The notes beneath the pieces were generated by a model. It saw only the letters and a program-made list of their open reading frames with translations, was not told the origin of the DNA and did not search any database. A stretch of 64,000 bases of DNA from Bacteriovoracaceae bacterium (GTDB lineage: Bacteria > Bdellovibrionota > Bacteriovoracia > Bacteriovoracales > Bacteriovoracaceae). The position numbers and the translations under genes were made by a program. This document shows, piece after piece, positions 3,174-10,843 of this stretch (the first letter of the stretch is position 1; the number at the start of each line of letters is the position of its first letter). Location: contig JABGXW010000134.1 in assembly GCA_018675575.1 (NCBI GenBank), positions 1 through 64,000 of the forward strand, read 5' to 3'.

Positions 3174-5042
3174 ATGAAAAATATCTTAATAATACTATCT
3201 TTGACTTTTATTTCTCTTTCAAAAGTTTACGCAAGGGCATCTATAGCAAAAGCCGATTGGGTGAGGGGACATGTTACTAAACTCGATCCAAACTCTAAGA
3301 AAGCAGTAATTCTTAAAAAAGGAGACCTGCTTTATGAAGACACATCTATTGTGACTTCAAAAAAATCCATTGTACGAGTTCGATTTGCAAACAACTCTGT
3401 TCTTACTCTTGGACAAAATAGTAAATTTATTATTGAGGAAATGAAAAATAAGGAAAGCACCCTCGTTAATCTTTTGATGGGACAACTAAGAGCTAAAGTT
3501 GATAAAGCTAAGACAGGACAACCAAAAAATAAATTTATTATGAAAACGAGAACTGCAGCAGTTGGAGTTCGTGGCACAGAATTTTTAACTGTCTATAATC
3601 CTACTGGTCAAAATACTTCATTGGTAACTATAGAGGGTGAAGTTGCCATGAAAAAAGTGGTAAAAAAGCGAGGTATCGTCGATCAATCTCACGTGAATTC
3701 CATGACAGAGAAAGCTGCAAATAGCTCTACCTCAAAAGTTGATGTCTTCGAGAAGGTTCTTTCAGAATCAGATACAGTGATTATCAAAAAGGGACGATTT
3801 TCGGGAGTAAATTCAAACTTTTTGAAGGCATCTAAGCCGGTTAAAATTTCAGCTAAGCAATTTATAGCCTTGAGAGAAGATGCAGCACTCGAATCCCACA
3901 TCAAAGAAGCTACCAAGTTAAAGGGTATTAGCTCTAAACAAATTGAAGAAGTTGCAAAGGAAATAGATGCTGTTGAAGTTGTGGATCCTAAGAAGGAAGG
4001 ATTTTTTAATGAAAAGACAGGTGAATTTGCTCCTAAATCCGGTGGAATTTTAGACACTTCTACAGGAATATATGTTCAACCCCCAAATGATGCAAAGTAT
4101 AATGATGGCACCAAAGCTTACGAGATAGATGAATCGATAGGCCATGTTTCTGTGGGTGGTGGTTATATTCCCCCCGCAGGATTAGCATTAGACTCAAATA
4201 AGGGATTTGTGGCCATCGCAGCTGTTGACAACAAAGAAGATGAAGAAAAAATCAAGGCCTTGAATAAAACAATTGCCACCTCTCTTCCAATACCTAAAGA
4301 ACAAATAAACAAAAAAAGCAAGATAAACAAACATCAACTTTATTTTTCACTTGGCCCAGCGAGTATTAATTCTGAACTTTCCGATATAAATCTAGTATCA
4401 AACACAAATAACGTAGCAAGAGAATCTGGAGGCAGTCAGTATACTTTCAGTTGGAGTAAAGTTTGGGGTAAGAAGATTTCATCAGAATTTAAAATTTCTC
4501 AATTAGAAGCAGATGTACAGCAATCTTATAATTCCTTTAATACAGAAAAACAAACTAAAACCCTGTTGTATCTTAATAGCACTATAGGTCATAAAACATG
4601 GAGTCGCTTTTCAACAAAATTCTCTCTCATTCTTAAAGATATTTTGGTCCCAACAATTAGAGGTAGTATACAGCATATGGGGAATGATTATTCAGAGCTA
4701 TTAAAGGAAATTTCACCAAGGTTTTCTCTAGGCACTACTTATCATGCATATAAGGGAGACATGTTTACTTTTAATTTAGACTTTGACATAATTTTCTTTG
4801 CTGCGGTATCTATTACAAATACTCAATCGCCTGAAGTTGTAGAATTAATGCCTGGAATAGGAATGAACTTTAGAGCAGAGGGTAGATGGAAGGTCTTTAC
4901 TCGTTACTTTGTTGCTCTCTATATGAGGCATACATCGGAGGATCAAGATGTTAAAATAGTTGGTGGTACGGCGATTAATAATGATTTTAAAGCTAAATAT
5001 ACTGAAGATTCTGTAGGGTTAATTTTAGGATACGAGTTTTAA
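3174..5042 (+). CDS. Secreted FecR-domain protein with barrel-like C-terminus
   Basis: The 622-residue protein has a cleavable signal peptide (to about ARA, residue 22), then a FecR domain at about residues 33-160. That domain includes the RVRFANNSVLTLG strand, QLRAKV, and TAAVGVRGTEFLTVY. A low-complexity linker rich in K, E and S follows. From about 390 the sequence alternates polar and aromatic residues and ends GLILGYEF, the C-terminal aromatic signature of outer-membrane barrels. Classical FecR is an inner-membrane anti-sigma regulator beside an ECF sigma gene. This one has no sigma neighbour and looks like an envelope protein, as in the wide family of FecR-domain surface proteins. Confidence 0.75.
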   Translation: MKNILIILSLTFISLSKVYARASIAKADWVRGHVTKLDPNSKKAVILKKGDLLYEDTSIVTSKKSIVRVRFANNSVLTLGQNSKFIIEEMKNKESTLVNLLMGQLRAKVDKAKTGQPKNKFIMKTRTAAVGVRGTEFLTVYNPTGQNTSLVTIEGEVAMKKVVKKRGIVDQSHVNSMTEKAANSSTSKVDVFEKVLSESDTVIIKKGRFSGVNSNFLKASKPVKISAKQFIALREDAALESHIKEATKLKGISSKQIEEVAKEIDAVEVVDPKKEGFFNEKTGEFAPKSGGILDTSTGIYVQPPNDAKYNDGTKAYEIDESIGHVSVGGGYIPPAGLALDSNKGFVAIAAVDNKEDEEKIKALNKTIATSLPIPKEQINKKSKINKHQLYFSLGPASINSELSDINLVSNTNNVARESGGSQYTFSWSKVWGKKISSEFKISQLEADVQQSYNSFNTEKQTKTLLYLNSTIGHKTWSRFSTKFSLILKDILVPTIRGSIQHMGNDYSELLKEISPRFSLGTTYHAYKGDMFTFNLDFDIIFFAAVSITNTQSPEVVELMPGIGMNFRAEGRWKVFTRYFVALYMRHTSEDQDVKIVGGTAINNDFKAKYTEDSVGLILGYEF

Positions 5043-5331
5043 TTTAGTCTTGGTAAAAAGAACCATTTTTAAATTTATAATTAACCAGTCACGTACTGTT
5101 TCTAGCACCACTTCAATATGAACTATAATATTGTACGGAAAATTGATATTTTGGTCGATAAGATTAGGTGTGAGTTTATCACTAAAGCAATTACAGTGAG
5201 TTATAGTGTACTTCTCGATTCCTGGATGGCCATTTTGTTGGCAGTATAGGAGTACTAACTATTCACTATTTTTAGCAATAATTTATCGCAAGAAATTGTA
5301 AAACAAGTCAGAGCTATTTATACTCAATATC

Positions 5332-5820
5332 ATGAGTAATGAAGTATTGATTTATATCTACAAAGCTTTTTTCTACATTTTGTTTGGATGTACGATGGAA
5401 GTCGTTTTTTCGGTTATAGGAATTGAAAAATTAGTAGGAAAGACAATTACAAGGAGAGTTCCTACTAATTACTTAGAAGGGTTTATCTCTTTATATATGT
5501 TTCCCATCTATGCGATAGGTTTACCATTCTTCTTTGAGCCCGTTCTGTCTTTAATTTCTTCATGGCATATATTCTTCCGGTACATTCTGTGGTGCTTTTC
5601 TATTACAGCTGCGGAAGCTTTATTAGGATTTGTTTGTCACAAACTACTAAAGTTTTATCCGTGGGATTATTACAAGCTTTCCCCTTACAAAGTATTTTAT
5701 GAGGGTTATACTCTTTGGAATCTTATTCCTTTTTGGGGAATTGCAGGACTAGCATTAGAAATTTATTCTTCTTATCTAAACTACTCTTCAAAATACTTTT
5801 TACTTTTTTTGGAAAAATAA
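5332..5820 (+). CDS. Membrane protein of the putative ABC-transporter type IV (CmpB-like) family
   Basis: The 162-residue protein has about four transmembrane segments. The segment AAEALLGFVCHKLLKFYPWDY, followed by YTLWNLIPFWGIAGL, resembles the PF06541 family, in which a helix is followed by a W-DY motif and a WG-rich helix. Function is unknown in the family despite the ABC-transporter name, and no ATPase partner is adjacent. No strong Shine-Dalgarno sequence precedes the ATG. The 289 bases upstream hold no other convincing gene. The downstream promoter for the DUF1854 unit begins 10 bases after its stop. Confidence 0.55.
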   Translation: MSNEVLIYIYKAFFYILFGCTMEVVFSVIGIEKLVGKTITRRVPTNYLEGFISLYMFPIYAIGLPFFFEPVLSLISSWHIFFRYILWCFSITAAEALLGFVCHKLLKFYPWDYYKLSPYKVFYEGYTLWNLIPFWGIAGLALEIYSSYLNYSSKYFLLFLEK

Positions 5821-5830
5821 TTTTTTCTTG

Positions 5831-5858
5831 TTGACTTCTATTGAAAATCATCTATTTT
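5831..5858 (+). promoter_or_regulatory. Sigma-70-type promoter of the leader ORF / ABC / DUF1854 unit
   Basis: TTGACT at 5831-5836 is followed by a 16-base spacer and TATTTT at 5853-5858. It lies directly after the previous gene and about 30 bases before the Shine-Dalgarno sequence of the 39-codon ORF. Confidence 0.45.
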
Positions 5859-5898
5859 GTAAACATTATCAATAATCAAATCTCAAAGGAGGTCTGAA

Positions 5899-6018
5899 GT
5901 GAGCAATATGACATTCATTTCAAAAGAGCTGAAAAGCTACGGACTTCTTCTGACGATACCAACAGAAGAGTCCCAGTCGGGACTGACACCGGGATTTCTA
6001 GTAAAAACTAGAGATTAA
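5899..6018 (+). CDS. 39-residue leader peptide or small peptide
   Basis: A GTG at 5899 lies 6 bases after a near-perfect Shine-Dalgarno sequence, AAAGGAGG, the strongest in this stretch. An in-frame ATG follows at 5908. The peptide begins MSNMTFISKELKSYG and ends SGLTPGFLVKTRD. It has no signal peptide, cysteines or membrane helix. The coding sequence is almost wholly occupied by hairpins that can pair in alternative ways (5941-6015). That suggests translation of this ORF controls RNA folding, as in leader-peptide attenuation. It could instead be a translated product or exported peptide of the ABC transporter downstream. Confidence 0.5.
   Translation: MSNMTFISKELKSYGLLLTIPTEESQSGLTPGFLVKTRD
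5941..6015 (+). promoter_or_regulatory. Mutually exclusive hairpins inside the leader ORF
   Basis: Hairpin A pairs 5941-5952 with 5963-5973 (11 pairs, one bulged T, 10-base loop). Hairpin B pairs AGTCCC (5969-5974) with GGGACT (5979-5984) across a 4-base loop. A and B share bases 5969-5973, so they cannot form together. Hairpin C pairs 5994-6002 with 6007-6015 (9 pairs including one wobble, AAAA loop) just before the stop codon. A ribosome on the 39-codon ORF would melt A, then B, then C. Confidence 0.5.
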
Positions 6019-6058
6019 AAAGTCACAAACGTTAGCAAATTTTAAAACTTTAACAAAC

Positions 6059-6105
6059 AAAGTTAGACAGAACTGAATATTACATTCAAGTTCATCTGAC
6101 TTTTT
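6059..6105 (+). terminator. Possible attenuator hairpin in the leader
   Basis: An imperfect inverted repeat pairs about 6059-6078 with 6084-6103 (AAAGT-AGA-GAACT-GAAT against ATTC-AGTTC-TCT-ACTTT). It is followed by TTTTT within 6101-6105. It lies between the 39-codon and 87-codon ORFs and could end transcription in the leader under one condition. The mismatches make it weaker than the operon's final terminator. Confidence 0.4.
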
Positions 6106-6116
6106 AACCTAAACCT

Positions 6117-6147
6117 TTGATTTCTACACATGGAAATCAATTTTATT
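6117..6147 (+). terminator. Second terminator-like hairpin in the leader
   Basis: TTGATTTC (6117-6124) pairs perfectly with GAAATCAA (6133-6140) over an 8-base loop and is followed by TTTTATT. The stem is AT-rich, so it may be weak or act as an RNA processing or stability element. It lies 18 bases before the Shine-Dalgarno sequence of the 87-codon ORF. Confidence 0.35.
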
Positions 6148-6173
6148 AACTTTATAAATCTAATGGAGGATTT

Positions 6174-6437
6174 ATGTACGCGAAATTTTTATTTAAAGAA
6201 TCGTTTTTGGTCGAGTTTAGTTCTCTATTAGAGGGAATGAAGATGGTTTTGAGCAGTAGCTTAAAATTATTAAAACTCTTTTATCAACCGCTTTTCAGAT
6301 GGGTATTTGTCTTGTTTAAGTGGCCAGTACTGGTCAAAAGACAATCACCAAATGAAAGGCCTGAACTTGTAGAGTTGGAAGTTTCGAGGTGGAGTGGACA
6401 TTCTCCACACTCGCCAGGACAGCTCTATTTTAGATGA
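6174..6437 (+). CDS. Small cationic, partly hydrophobic protein upstream of the ABC exporter
   Basis: The 87-residue protein starts at an ATG behind a strong ribosome binding site (TGGAGGATTT). Residues about 20-55 are hydrophobic and basic (SSSLKLLKLFYQPLFRWVFVLFKWP), amphipathic rather than a clean membrane helix. The C-terminus is polar and ends SGHSPHSPGQLYFR. No family is recognised. It sits between a structured leader and an ABC exporter, 34 bases before the exporter gene. It may be the exporter's substrate, a small partner, or a second leader ORF. Its start is well supported; whether it makes a functional protein is not. Confidence 0.5.
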   Translation: MYAKFLFKESFLVEFSSLLEGMKMVLSSSLKLLKLFYQPLFRWVFVLFKWPVLVKRQSPNERPELVELEVSRWSGHSPHSPGQLYFR

Positions 6438-6471
6438 TTGGGATTAGAAAAATCCCATAAAGGAGTAAAGA

Positions 6472-8751
6472 ATGAATTTAGAATTAGAAAGAAAAAATAC
6501 AATTAGTAAATATTACGAACAGGAATCGTCATTGCCAAAAAAAATTAAAGAAAATCTCTTAAATATTGAGATAGAACTCTATGGACTTATTGATTTAAAT
6601 GAGTCCATGGAATTTCAAAGTTCTTGGCTTGTACTTGGAGAAAATACGCTTTACCTATTTAAAAAGAATGGTGAGGAACATGTATTAGATACGAAATTAC
6701 TTATTACAAGTATTTCGAGAATTAAAGAACATCAATCTTTGAGTTCGTCTAAATATGAGTTCTTAACAGCTGATGATATGCCTCCTTTGCTATCAGTACA
6801 TTTTACTGGCAGGCAAAAGATTGTTTTAGGTCATATTAAATACCTCATTGAAACTAAAATGAAGAGTGTTAAATATAATAAACCTAAAGACTGGAATCCT
6901 GATGTGGAATATCAAAAAGCAGTACTAAAGCATCTTAATGAGGCGCAAAGCACCCTCTCAGACAAACAGGGGAAAACTTTTTTAAGACTAGTGGGATATT
7001 TAAAACCCTATAAGAAAGACGTTTTTTGGGGAACAGTAGGAGCGATATGCAGTACATTATCAGCTTTGCTTCCAGCTTACTTAACAGGACGTTTGCTTGA
7101 TACAGTTATTAAGCCTTTTCAGGAAGGAGGACTTCAAAAAACTTTAGCAATGAATGCCGCTTGGAGGATATTGGCAGCAATTTTTTTAGTCTTTATATTA
7201 AAGGAAGTCTTTTCTTATATGCGACTTAGTAAAATGTCTTTGATGGGTGAAGATGTTGCAATGGATTTGAGAACTGAACTTTTTTCTCATTTACAGAAGT
7301 TGGGACTAGACTTCTTCGGGCGCAAGCAAACGGGTTCTATTATCAGTCGTGTAAGTTCTGATACTGATAGAATTTGGGACTTTGTAGCATTTGGGATTGT
7401 CGAAGTTGGTATTGCACTAGTTACTTTGATTTCTTTATCTGCGGTTTTGATTACTTTGGATTGGAAACTGGGATTAGCTATGTCTTTACCGGTTCCAATT
7501 CTTTTATTAAGTATTTATTACCATGGAGAAAGGATGCAAAAGCTTTTTATTAGAGCATGGAGAAAATGGTCAGACTTAACAAATGTTTTATCTGACACAA
7601 TTCCAGGTATTCAAGTGGTCAAGGCATTTAATCAAGAAGAAAAGGAAATAGATCGCTTTAATCAGTCAAATGATGATGTTACTGGTGAGTTTAAATCTGT
7701 TCATTATGCTTGGACTAAATTTTGGCCATTATTGATGATGGGAATTCAAGTCATAGTGATGACGGTATGGATTTTAGCAATTCCGCGGTTAATTTCTGAG
7801 GAAGGTACCACTGATTATTTATCATTGGGAACATTTGTATCATTTCTTCTATATGTAACTATGTTTAGTCAACCTATCGAAGTCATCGGTCAAATGGCAA
7901 GAATGTTAAACAGAGCTTTGAGTTCAGCTTATCGGATATTTGAAATTTTAGATACAAGTCCATCTTTAAAAAATGGTCGAACTATACTGAAGAAAGGTGA
8001 GCTAAAAGGTGATATTGAATTTAAAAATGTTTCATTTAGTTATGATGGAGTTCGAAAGGTGGTTTGTGGAATAAATTTTCGTGTTTTACCTGGAGAGATG
8101 ATTGGACTTGTGGGTTCTTCGGGGGGGGGGAAATCTACTATTACAAAACTTATCGCAAGATTTTTTGATGTAAGTACAGGGGAAATTATTATTGATGGTA
8201 AGAACTTAAGAGAATTGGAAGTAGGAAGTTTTAGGAAACAAGTAGGAATGGTCTTACAGGACCCATATTTATTTCATGGAACACTTGTAGATAATATTCG
8301 TTATGGATTGCCAGATGTTTCTTTGAAGAAGGTAATTGAAGCTGCTAAAATTGCAAATGCTCATGAGTTTATTATGAGCTTTGAACTTGGTTATGAAACG
8401 ATTGTAGGAGAAAGGGGGCATACCCTTTCTGGAGGTGAGCGACAAAGGATTTCAATTGCGAGAGCAATACTTCACGATCCCAAAATTTTAATTTTGGATG
8501 AGGCAACCTCTGCTGTTGATACTGAAACTGAAAGAAAAATTCAAGATGCTCTTGATAAATTAATTGAGGGGAGAACCGTATTTGCTGTCGCTCATAGGTT
8601 ATCAACATTAAGAAAAGCTAATCGAATCTTTGTCGTGGATAAAGGTGAGATCAAAGAAACGGGAACTCATAATGACTTATTGAAGAAGAAAGATGGGCTT
8701 TATAATAAACTCCATCGAATGCAACAAGAAATGAGTGAAAACTTTGTTTAA
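6472..8751 (+). CDS. ABC exporter (fused permease and ATPase) of the DUF1854-associated type
   Basis: The 759-residue protein has an N-terminal extension of about 150 residues, which may be PH-like (FQSSWLVLGENTLYLF). Six transmembrane helices follow at about 180-460, then an ATPase domain: Walker A GSSGGGKST at 548-556, signature LSGGERQ, Walker B LILDEAT and H-loop AHR. Half-transporters of this form dimerise. Database relatives with this N-terminal extension are, to my knowledge, annotated as cyanophycin-metabolism-associated ABC transporters and occur beside DUF1854 proteins, as here; no cyanophycin synthetase gene is present in the window. A 7-bp hairpin (6439-6457) immediately precedes the ribosome binding site AAAGGAG. 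Confidence 0.85.
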   Translation: MNLELERKNTISKYYEQESSLPKKIKENLLNIEIELYGLIDLNESMEFQSSWLVLGENTLYLFKKNGEEHVLDTKLLITSISRIKEHQSLSSSKYEFLTADDMPPLLSVHFTGRQKIVLGHIKYLIETKMKSVKYNKPKDWNPDVEYQKAVLKHLNEAQSTLSDKQGKTFLRLVGYLKPYKKDVFWGTVGAICSTLSALLPAYLTGRLLDTVIKPFQEGGLQKTLAMNAAWRILAAIFLVFILKEVFSYMRLSKMSLMGEDVAMDLRTELFSHLQKLGLDFFGRKQTGSIISRVSSDTDRIWDFVAFGIVEVGIALVTLISLSAVLITLDWKLGLAMSLPVPILLLSIYYHGERMQKLFIRAWRKWSDLTNVLSDTIPGIQVVKAFNQEEKEIDRFNQSNDDVTGEFKSVHYAWTKFWPLLMMGIQVIVMTVWILAIPRLISEEGTTDYLSLGTFVSFLLYVTMFSQPIEVIGQMARMLNRALSSAYRIFEILDTSPSLKNGRTILKKGELKGDIEFKNVSFSYDGVRKVVCGINFRVLPGEMIGLVGSSGGGKSTITKLIARFFDVSTGEIIIDGKNLRELEVGSFRKQVGMVLQDPYLFHGTLVDNIRYGLPDVSLKKVIEAAKIANAHEFIMSFELGYETIVGERGHTLSGGERQRISIARAILHDPKILILDEATSAVDTETERKIQDALDKLIEGRTVFAVAHRLSTLRKANRIFVVDKGEIKETGTHNDLLKKKDGLYNKLHRMQQEMSENFV
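8121..8130 (+). repeat. Poly-G(10) tract within the Walker A codons of the ABC exporter
   Basis: Ten consecutive G residues encode the end of Ser550 and Gly551-553 of the P-loop. It is the longest G run I saw in the window and stands out in an AT-rich gene. Synonymous glycine codons could have broken it. A slip of one base would truncate the ATPase. Confidence 0.9.
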
Positions 8752-8761
8752 AGGAGAGAAA

Positions 8762-9250
8762 ATGACGACAGAATTATTAGATATTCGTTTATTCTTAAAA
8801 GAAAATAATCAGTTATATCTATCAGGATTAAAAGATATATTCGAAAATAAAGAGATAGAAGTAAATATTAAAAAATGTTTCCCTTGGTCACATCAAGATA
8901 AGTTTCTTTCTTTTCGAAATAAGGATGATGAAGAAGTTTTGCTACTTCCTGATATTAATCAATTAGATGACAGGTCTAGAGAGGATCTTCTTCAATTTTT
9001 ATCACAATCTGATTTTATGATGAAAATAACGGATATTATTTCTATTGAAGAAGAAGTGGAGCTACGAAACTTTAAGGTGATTACAAGCTCAGGGATACGC
9101 AACATCCAAACAAAACTAGATGATTGGCCGAAAATACTAAAAAATGGATCTGTTATGATTCAGGATCTATGCGGAGATACATTTGTGATTTTAAGTATAG
9201 AACATTTAGAATCTGCCGCTAGAAAATTAATTGGAACTTACGTTAGTTAA
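8762..9250 (+). CDS. DUF1854 family protein
   Basis: The 162-residue cytosolic protein starts at the ATG at 8762, directly after AAAGGAGAG; an upstream in-frame ATG at 8735 lies inside the ABC gene and is unlikely. The C-terminal two-thirds match DUF1854: LDDRSREDLLQFL at about 68-80, FKVITSSGIRNI at 104-115, GSVMIQDLCGDTFVI at 129-143, then SAARKLIG. The family has no defined biochemical role and is typically encoded beside the ABC transporter type found immediately upstream here. It probably partners or regulates that exporter. A strong terminator closes the unit 22 bases downstream. Confidence 0.75.
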   Translation: MTTELLDIRLFLKENNQLYLSGLKDIFENKEIEVNIKKCFPWSHQDKFLSFRNKDDEEVLLLPDINQLDDRSREDLLQFLSQSDFMMKITDIISIEEEVELRNFKVITSSGIRNIQTKLDDWPKILKNGSVMIQDLCGDTFVILSIEHLESAARKLIGTYVS

Positions 9251-9271
9251 TGTTAATCAATGAGTTTTTAG

Positions 9272-9321
9272 GAGTGTTGCTTGGGGCGAATCAGATTTTA
9301 CCCAAGCAGCACTCTTTTTTT
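9272..9321 (+). terminator. Strong Rho-independent terminator of the DUF1854 unit
   Basis: A 14-bp stem (9272-9285 with 9301-9314, one G-T wobble) with a 15-base loop is followed by seven T residues. It is the clearest terminator in the window. Confidence 0.92.
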
Positions 9322-9390
9322 ATAGACTCTTATTGACACTAATGGTTATCACAAAGGAGAGATATCCAAAGGGATAAGAACTCAATTAGC

Positions 9391-10743
9391 TTAGGATTTC
9401 GGAGCATCTTCAAAATTTAAATTTTTAAACTCATGGTCTAAACTTTTAATTCTAAGATAAAAAATAGTTATAAGACCGATGCTTACACAAGTTAATCCAA
9501 TCGCTAAGCCTGCCCAGAGACCTTTTGCCTCCATCCCTTTTGAAAAGGCCAGGTAATAACCCATGGGAACTCCAATCGCCCAATTTCCTAACAAGGTGAT
9601 AATCATCGGCGACTTTGTAGTATTTAAGCCGCGTAGGATCCCCCATAAGGTGACTTGGATACCGTCAGGGATTTGAAACATAGCAACGAAGACAATGAGC
9701 CCTGCTGCATACTTAATAAGCTCTTGATCTTCAGAAAACATTCTTAAAATGAGATCTGGAATTAAAAAATAGGATGTTGCTGTAATGCTCATGCAAATAA
9801 TAGTGATGGTTAACGCCGCTAAGCTGGTGATGATTACTTTGTCCTTATCTTTTTGCCCAAAAACGATTCCGACTTTAACTCCAGCAGCTGAATTCATTGC
9901 CAAAGGTAACATGAATGTTAGCGAGGCTAAATTAAGAACAATATTATGGGCAGCAGAAGCGATAACAGACATTCTTCCAATTAAGATTGTGACAGTAGTA
10001 AAAACCAAAACTTCTACAAATGTTCCTAAGGCAATAGGAATTCCAAGATTAATGATTTCTTTAAATAATCTTTTATTAATTAAAAAGCTATCTTTCTTTT
10101 TCTCCAAACGCGTAAGATAAAAAAATAAAATAACCGATGATAAAATTCGGCAGAGAGTGGTAGCATAGGCAGCACCTTCTATCCCCATGTTGGGGAGGCC
10201 AAGCTTACCAAACATAAATATATAATTTAGGCCGACGTTTATAGCTAAGAAAATAAAGATTAATCCATTTGCGAAATAAGTTTTAGAATAAGCTTGAAGA
10301 TATTCTTTTGATACTTGGAACGTTAAAATGGGAATGATAGAAAAACCTACAATTTTACAATATTGATGAATTAATAGGGCCCTCGAAGTCTCGAATCCAA
10401 ATAAATGAATATAATTGAGACAGATTTCTATAATTAAATAAAGAAAAAGTCCTAAGGCAACGGCAACAAGATGAGAGGTTAAAAGCATGCCTTCTTTTTT
10501 ATCATTTGTACCGATTTGTTGAGCTGTTAAGGATCCAACAGCGTATGTGAGAGAAAGTCCAACCATAATAAAAGGACCAAATATCGCAGAAGCGACACCT
10601 AATGCTGCTACTACTTCATTTGAATATCTGCCAGCAACCATGATATCACCAGTTCCATAAAGCATTTGACCAATTTGGCCAGCGACTAATGGAAGTGAAA
10701 AATAAAATAATTCTTTTAATTGTTTTAAATACCTCTCAAACAT
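9391..10743 (-). CDS. MATE family efflux transporter
   Basis: About 450 residues with 12 predicted transmembrane helices match the multidrug and toxic compound extrusion family, which exports cationic compounds in exchange for sodium ions or protons. The first half contains the typical SLPLVAGQIGQMLYGTGDIMVAGRYS segment, followed by ALGVASAIFGPF; the second half repeats the fold from about residue 235. The open frame extends to a TTG at 10782. I prefer the ATG at 10743 because it places the start just before the first helix, although no good Shine-Dalgarno sequence is visible for either. It is divergent from the acyltransferase gene. The drug or metabolite exported cannot be read from the sequence. 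Confidence 0.9.
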   Translation of the reverse strand: MFERYLKQLKELFYFSLPLVAGQIGQMLYGTGDIMVAGRYSNEVVAALGVASAIFGPFIMVGLSLTYAVGSLTAQQIGTNDKKEGMLLTSHLVAVALGLFLYLIIEICLNYIHLFGFETSRALLIHQYCKIVGFSIIPILTFQVSKEYLQAYSKTYFANGLIFIFLAINVGLNYIFMFGKLGLPNMGIEGAAYATTLCRILSSVILFFYLTRLEKKKDSFLINKRLFKEIINLGIPIALGTFVEVLVFTTVTILIGRMSVIASAAHNIVLNLASLTFMLPLAMNSAAGVKVGIVFGQKDKDKVIITSLAALTITIICMSITATSYFLIPDLILRMFSEDQELIKYAAGLIVFVAMFQIPDGIQVTLWGILRGLNTTKSPMIITLLGNWAIGVPMGYYLAFSKGMEAKGLWAGLAIGLTCVSIGLITIFYLRIKSLDHEFKNLNFEDAPKS

Positions 10744-10843
10744 ATAAAAATTTAAGCATTTAATAATAACTCCAACAACCAAAGATGTTCTTATTACAGG
10801 GTGTAAGTTTACAAATAAGACCTTTTTCGTCAGAATAAGAACT

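Follow-up and report, generated by a model that had tools for sequence, protein, structure and literature searches.

An ABC exporter operon of Bdellovibrionota with a DUF1854 partner and a leader reading frame that may act as a Shine-Dalgarno-sequestering switch

We have analysed a window of 64,000 nucleotides (nt) from a Bacteriovoracaceae bacterium (contig JABGXW010000134.1, here C82, of a 3.73-Mb draft genome that is 92% complete), in which a short leader open reading frame (ORF-A), a gene for a small cationic protein (ORF-B), an ATP-binding cassette (ABC) exporter gene and a gene for a DUF1854 protein follow one another between a promoter and a terminator. All parts lie on the + strand, and coordinates refer to the whole window (Table 1). 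That they make up one operon is confirmed, and every part of the discrete unit at 5831-9321 with two small ORFs, proposed in the original prediction for this DNA, is present; the four-gene export operon is also probably undescribed, as had been suggested. Our proposal, to which we give an even chance, is that the operon is gated by an RNA switch acting on translation of the leader ORF. The operon anatomy and its conservation, the selection acting on ORF-B, the covariation between the Shine-Dalgarno (SD) sequence of ORF-A and a complementary anti-SD, and the fusion of DUF1854 to the ABC protein were all established computationally.

The SD region of ORF-A is complementary to a segment located about 40-90 nt inside ORF-A itself, typically GTGGTGACCTC. 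When this pairing was compared with dinucleotide shuffles over 37 loci, the Fisher combined p was 6e-12, with 17 loci at p<0.05 and the window's own helix at p=0.033. The same test was null for the other SDs of the operon (0.88 and 1.0 for ORF-B, 0.72 for the ABC gene), and sequestration of the ORF-B SD was rejected on that basis. In addition, the two arms of a locus pair better with each other than with arms swapped between loci (p=2e-4, or 6e-4 with 18 clade representatives), in a test that searched all interiors alike. The 23 distinct arm pairs, examples of which are GGAGGTAACC/GGTGACCTC, GGAGGTAACTAT/ATAGTGACCTC, GGAGACGA/TCGTCTC and GGAGATAG/CTATCTC, contain 42 two-sided changes against 18.6 when shuffled (0/500). 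The end of the anti-SD falls at one codon position, in the same frame, in 26/37 loci (p=5e-6), which is consistent with translation of ORF-A through the anti-SD. Two further hairpins are predicted in the genus to which the window belongs: one holds the start codon and by inspection recurs in L043 and L047, its arms there showing compensatory changes, and the other competes for the anti-SD, a competition that is significant across loci (p=7e-4, control 0.97) while being neither present in every locus nor significant in the window alone.

Table 1. Features of the exporter operon and its leader region
Feature	Position	Strand	Basis
Promoter-like TTGACT (5831-5836), 16 nt, TATTTT (5853-5858)	5831..5858	+	sequence scan and conservation in homologous loci
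SD-sequestering helix: 5887-5896 AGGAGGTCTG with anti-SD 5940-5949 CGGACTTCTT inside ORF-A	5887..5949	+	shuffle, swap and covariation tests
ORF-A Shine-Dalgarno GGAGG	5888..5892	+	read from sequence
Start-codon hairpin 5895-5903/5914-5922 (window's genus)	5895..5922	+	folding
ORF-A, 39-aa leader ORF, GTG start	5899..6018	+	ORF call, conservation, dN/dS
Competing hairpin capturing anti-SD, 5941-5952/5963-5973 (window's genus)	5941..5973	+	folding
AU-rich hairpin then T5, possible attenuator	6059..6105	+	folding
Second perfect hairpin in ORF-A/ORF-B gap	6117..6140	+	folding
ORF-B, 87-aa cationic amphipathic protein, SD 6165-6169	6174..6437	+	profile, dN/dS, charge, moment
Type IV ABC exporter, 759 aa, extra N-terminal beta-rich domain (about aa 20-130)	6472..8751	+	Pfam, structure model, fold matches
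DUF1854 protein, 162 aa	8762..9250	+	PF08909 89.7 bits; ABC pairing; ABC fusions
Intrinsic terminator: stem AGTGTTGCTTGGG 9273-9285, CCCAAGCAGCACT 9301-9313, T7 to 9321	9273..9321	+	read from sequence

Among the Bdellovibrionota loci that have upstream sequence, practically all carry, ahead of ORF-B, a short ORF of 23-67 codons with its own SD, which is always the first gene in the transcript. The strict SD-plus-ORF pattern occurs in 30/35 loci, with 0.009 expected per shuffled locus. A promoter scan by itself rated TTGACT-16-TATTTT no better than chance; from the recurrence of TTGAC[A/T] 59-87 nt upstream of ORF-A in 22/36 homologous loci, where 2.8 would be expected, the promoter ahead of ORF-A is judged to be conserved. 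The ratio of nonsynonymous to synonymous substitution rates (dN/dS) of ORF-A is 0.3-0.9 in relatives, and dS is depressed, far below that of the ABC gene; conservation is greatest at the start and middle of the ORF, and its end is variable. The weak constraint on amino acids and the depressed dS suggest a leader in which the RNA counts for more than the encoded peptide. As a separate observation, the motif ACATTCA occurs in the 5'-terminal 50 nt of ORF-A in 10/35 loci against 0.5 expected (in the window at about 5911-5917), and ACATTTA in the ORF-A/ORF-B gap in 7/35 loci against 1.3 expected, in both cases with shared ancestry not removed.

In the proposed mechanism, the mRNA would begin just upstream of ORF-A, and the ribosome-binding site of ORF-A would be hidden by pairing of its SD with the anti-SD inside the same ORF; the genus of the window would have, besides, a local hairpin enclosing the start codon, and there the anti-SD could be recaptured by a segment further downstream. 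Opening of the structure would allow ORF-A to be translated, and ribosomes moving through it would license expression of the genes below across the gap. The products would be the ORF-B accessory and a homodimeric MsbA-type (type IV) ABC exporter with DUF1854 as a domain-subunit, presumably induced by a stress signal. The nearest described case is bmrB-bmrCD of Bacillus subtilis, where an ABC exporter is under the control of a translated leader peptide with alternative stem-loops (PMC4191407). In both, a short leader ORF is co-transcribed ahead of an ABC exporter and is overlapped by stem-loops, which in the window are predicted ones, and ORF-A, like bmrB, is a short ORF with its own SD standing first in the exporter transcript; leader translation sets expression in bmrB-bmrCD, and may do so here. 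However, bmrCD comprises two transporter genes and bmrB contains an intrinsic terminator (PMC4191407), whereas the window has one exporter gene plus DUF1854 and no terminator has been established in its leader region. The window operon differs further in that the leader's own SD appears to be the sequestered one and that a second small protein gene, ORF-B, intervenes. We liken the two in their presumed working and claim no identity between them.

Several observations weigh against a leader switch of this kind. Some loci, e.g. L038, L041, L043, L047 and L056, have no significant SD pairing, and in the window folding predictions barely separate the SD helix from the competing hairpin, the minimum free energy structure shifting with the length of the segment folded. 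The combined p-values are optimistic because the loci are phylogenetically related, and the proportion of arm cells found paired in the 23 distinct arm pairs, 81% as opposed to 39-49% when the arms are slid, is inflated because the arms were selected by best pairing. In overall folding z-score, ORF-A and the gap do not surpass the ORF-B/ABC coding control, and general folding stability was dropped as evidence for a leader structure for that reason. As to how ORF-A translation could reach the genes below across a gap of 75-290 nt, a test for intrinsic terminators in the gap gave 4/35 loci at p<0.05 (Fisher 0.0016), by which no terminator is established, and the C>G (Rho-like) bias after the ORF-A stop is only weakly above that of control gaps (p=0.036). 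It could thus be that ORF-A is a conserved RNA structure and no more, one that restrains its own translation or serves as a thermosensor or a ligand-binding riboswitch, and that the downstream genes are expressed from the exposed SD of ORF-B irrespective of ORF-A translation, as the negative pairing test on that SD and the want of an established terminator or Rho signal would allow. One would then not expect ORF-A to be always first on a shared transcript under a conserved promoter, nor its frame to be kept across indels, as seen in the constant frame of the anti-SD (26/37), which implies that translation of ORF-A is selected for; we regard independent expression as somewhat unlikely. The leader element might, more tentatively, represent a new class of cis-regulatory RNA in Bdellovibrionota and possibly Calditrichota, namely a leader ORF with its own anti-SD and a competing anti-anti-SD, switching an undescribed exporter composed of an ABC protein with an N-terminal domain of PH-like topology, DUF1854 and a small cationic accessory. 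Rfam gave no match at E<=1 in 5000-9600. The co-varying leader offers a testable handle on regulation and, via the inducing signal, on the substrate.

The exporter itself is kept in many Bdellovibrionota. Its ABC protein carries the transmembrane and nucleotide-binding domains on one chain (PF00664 and PF00005) with all catalytic motifs, from Walker A and the signature to Walker B and the H-loop, present by inspection (GSSGGGKS, LSGGE, ILDEATS, AHRLS), and is on these sequence features a complete type IV exporter; in PADLOC the ABC protein had ATPase-domain matches only. In an AlphaFold model (predicted local distance difference test score, pLDDT, 80) the core fold matches ABCB10, MsbA, TM287/288 and TmrAB, and the N-terminus is seen to form an additional domain with seven strands and one helix, which in strand and helix order alone would be PH-like and which has no sequence match in Pfam or the PDB. 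The protein thus resembles MsbA, ABCB10 and TM287-288 in the fold and motifs of the transmembrane and ATPase domains, but differs from them in the additional beta-rich domain and in its constant DUF1854 partner. Since a second MsbA-like gene is present on contig C46, the ABC protein of the operon need not be the lipid A flippase.

The DUF1854 protein exceeds the PF08909 gathering cut-off of 26.8 bits by far, and its model is confident (pLDDT 90); neither fold nor sequence searches found a PDB relative, with no solved-fold match at E<=0.001, and no mention of DUF1854 was found in the literature searched. A DUF1854-alignment scan of 84,980 species genomes yielded 54 loci, from Bacteriovoracaceae, Halobacteriovoraceae, Bdellovibrionales, Calditrichota, Gemmatimonadota, Verrucomicrobia/Opitutales, Planctomycetota and Polyangiaceae, to which one Gemmatirosa plasmid locus was added. 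An ABC gene or part of one directly precedes DUF1854 in 53 of these 55, and in the other two the contig begins at that point. Moreover, the two are joined into one 952-aa protein in L165 (L165:3559-6417), and L167 has another fusion of this kind, truncated where its contig ends, the two fusions belonging to two genera of another Bdellovibrionota family. Given these natural fusions, DUF1854 is most plausibly a domain-subunit of the transporter, where it may serve as a regulatory or coupling domain. For what is by name a domain of unknown function, the fusions and the constant pairing make a role as an ABC-exporter domain directly testable.

ORF-B presents a different picture from the leader. 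Its dN/dS is 0.11-0.23 in relative pairs with resolvable dS (0.9-2.0) and 0.35 in one more divergent pair, and it is therefore a functional protein under purifying selection; by these substitution patterns ORF-A and ORF-B are different in kind, a leader ORF and a real protein. The product was predicted to be cationic and is so, with a net charge of +5, and it is amphipathic. Its profile matches 22/137 relatives, nearly always adjoining the ABC-DUF1854 pair, and misses most of the more divergent genes in other Bdellovibrionota families that match ORF-B in size, position and charge. Common to the homologues are a strongly amphipathic helix and a net charge of 0 to +13, most also having a P-x-L-x-R-x3-P-G segment and a terminal HPP; none has a clean transmembrane segment, and no Pfam or NCBIfam family matches ORF-B. 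Small accessory proteins of membrane transporters such as CcmD, AcrZ and KdpF are known, which resemble ORF-B in being small and encoded in or acting with a transporter complex, but in ORF-B no transmembrane helix is clear, and no relationship of its sequence to known families can be detected. ORF-B is probably a peripheral membrane accessory of the exporter. Lack of conservation had been named beforehand as grounds for abandoning the original prediction; when small ORFs were sought upstream of the collected DUF1854-ABC loci, both ORF-A and ORF-B were found to recur in Bdellovibrionota, so no such lack was found.

The same prediction had suggested that the unit may export or sense a peptide or another cationic polymer, and one could imagine ORF-A or ORF-B to be the cargo, either a signal or bacteriocin-like, with DUF1854 as chaperone or sensor. 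Both ORFs are linked to the exporter, ORF-B has the charge and amphipathicity of such a peptide, and a conserved start and middle with a variable end, as in ORF-A, would suit one. Nevertheless, the dN/dS and depressed dS of ORF-A fit an RNA-level leader, a co-varying helix sequesters the ORF-A SD, and its product is near neutral in charge and not membrane-active. No C39 peptidase domain was found in the Pfam scan of the ABC protein, and no double-glycine leader is evident by inspection in either small ORF, by which features the transporter does not appear to be a peptidase-containing peptide exporter. ORF-B is moreover not recognisable in Gemmatimonadota or in most other phyla having the ABC-DUF1854 pair (some Gemmatimonadota loci have other small ORFs ahead of the ABC gene), which makes it unlikely as a universal cargo of the transporter family. 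With a leader-like ORF-A, an ORF-B unrecognisable in most other phyla and neither C39 domain nor double-glycine leader, export of a small-ORF peptide has become less likely than was first thought, and we consider it improbable.

It had also been supposed that DUF1854 and this type of ABC protein usually lie near cyanophycin genes, and that their absence here was unusual. The supposition derives from the nearest curated models, NCBIfam NF052233 and NF052234, named cyanophycin metabolism-associated ABC transporter and DUF1854 protein. The window pair is homologous to these proteins over nearly the full length, ABC N-terminal domain included, but falls widely short of the equivalog cut-offs (623.5 against 880 and 53.8 against 150 bits). 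Nor do cyanophycin genes lie close by, and the draft genome contains no synthetase. No cphA was found near ABC-DUF1854 in any of the 55 loci, with flanks of up to 10 kb on each side, in a sample that leaves out the cyanophycin-linked relatives in Proteobacteria; within it, the cyanophycin-free state is thus the norm. Among 143 relatives, 25 have DUF1854 and five have CphA above cut-off, and the two coincide in only two genomes (G038 and G076), on different contigs, so that 23/25 DUF1854 relatives have no cphA. The presumed oddity of the absence is not supported by these counts. On the other hand, the operon was rightly said not to be a cyanophycin locus: a genome-wide search for cphA and cphB gave no cyanophycin synthetase in the 92%-complete draft (best TIGR02068 match 53.8 bits), the seven Mur-ligase-domain ORFs, each 414-485 aa, being below CphA size. 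The S51 peptidases of the genome comprise two PepE-like proteins and an apparently secreted 634-aa protein with a divergent, sub-cut-off cyanophycinase-like domain (93 bits, cut-off 126.6) on a contig separate from the operon. That the operon exports cyanophycin or an arginine-rich polymer made by genes located elsewhere is suggested by the names of the NCBIfam models; with both proteins far under the cut-offs and cphA lacking in this genome, in nearly all DUF1854 relatives and beside every sampled locus, the idea is largely refuted and very improbable. With the constant ABC pairing and the fusions, cyanophycin ceases to be the default explanation for the sampled relatives. The 634-aa protein (L174:244-2148, contig C91) has a hydrolase-like N-terminal and a cyanophycinase-like C-terminal half, and is a possible scavenging enzyme. 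Plasmids bearing cphA turned up in a search for proteobacterial cyanophycin clusters.

The operon's terminator has a stem of 13 bp with one mismatch; it was read by eye, and an automatic scanner gave no call, the loop exceeding its limit. Upstream, positions 5332-5820 encode a membrane protein of 162 aa whose similarity to PF06541 (ABC_trans_CmpB) is below threshold, the gene stopping 11 nt short of the operon promoter, and downstream a MATE gene at 9391-10782 is convergent with the operon; neither neighbour was found at the corresponding place in relatives. In other phyla, a Calditrichota locus (L091:7017-7518) has ORF-A-like and ORF-B-like genes, with a KHPPSLK segment, before the ABC-DUF1854 pair, which would reflect horizontal transfer or deep ancestry. 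In Gemmatimonadota (L096, L117 and L131) a different conserved small ORF ending READT lies just before the ABC gene, and in L096 and L117 it is preceded by the hairpin CTCGAGGACMCGAG, in which an SD-like GAGG is enclosed; this may be a separate leader working on the same principle. In Verrucomicrobia, a 29-aa ORF ending R-H is situated 145 nt before the ABC gene (L109:2058-2147 and L113:7357-7446).

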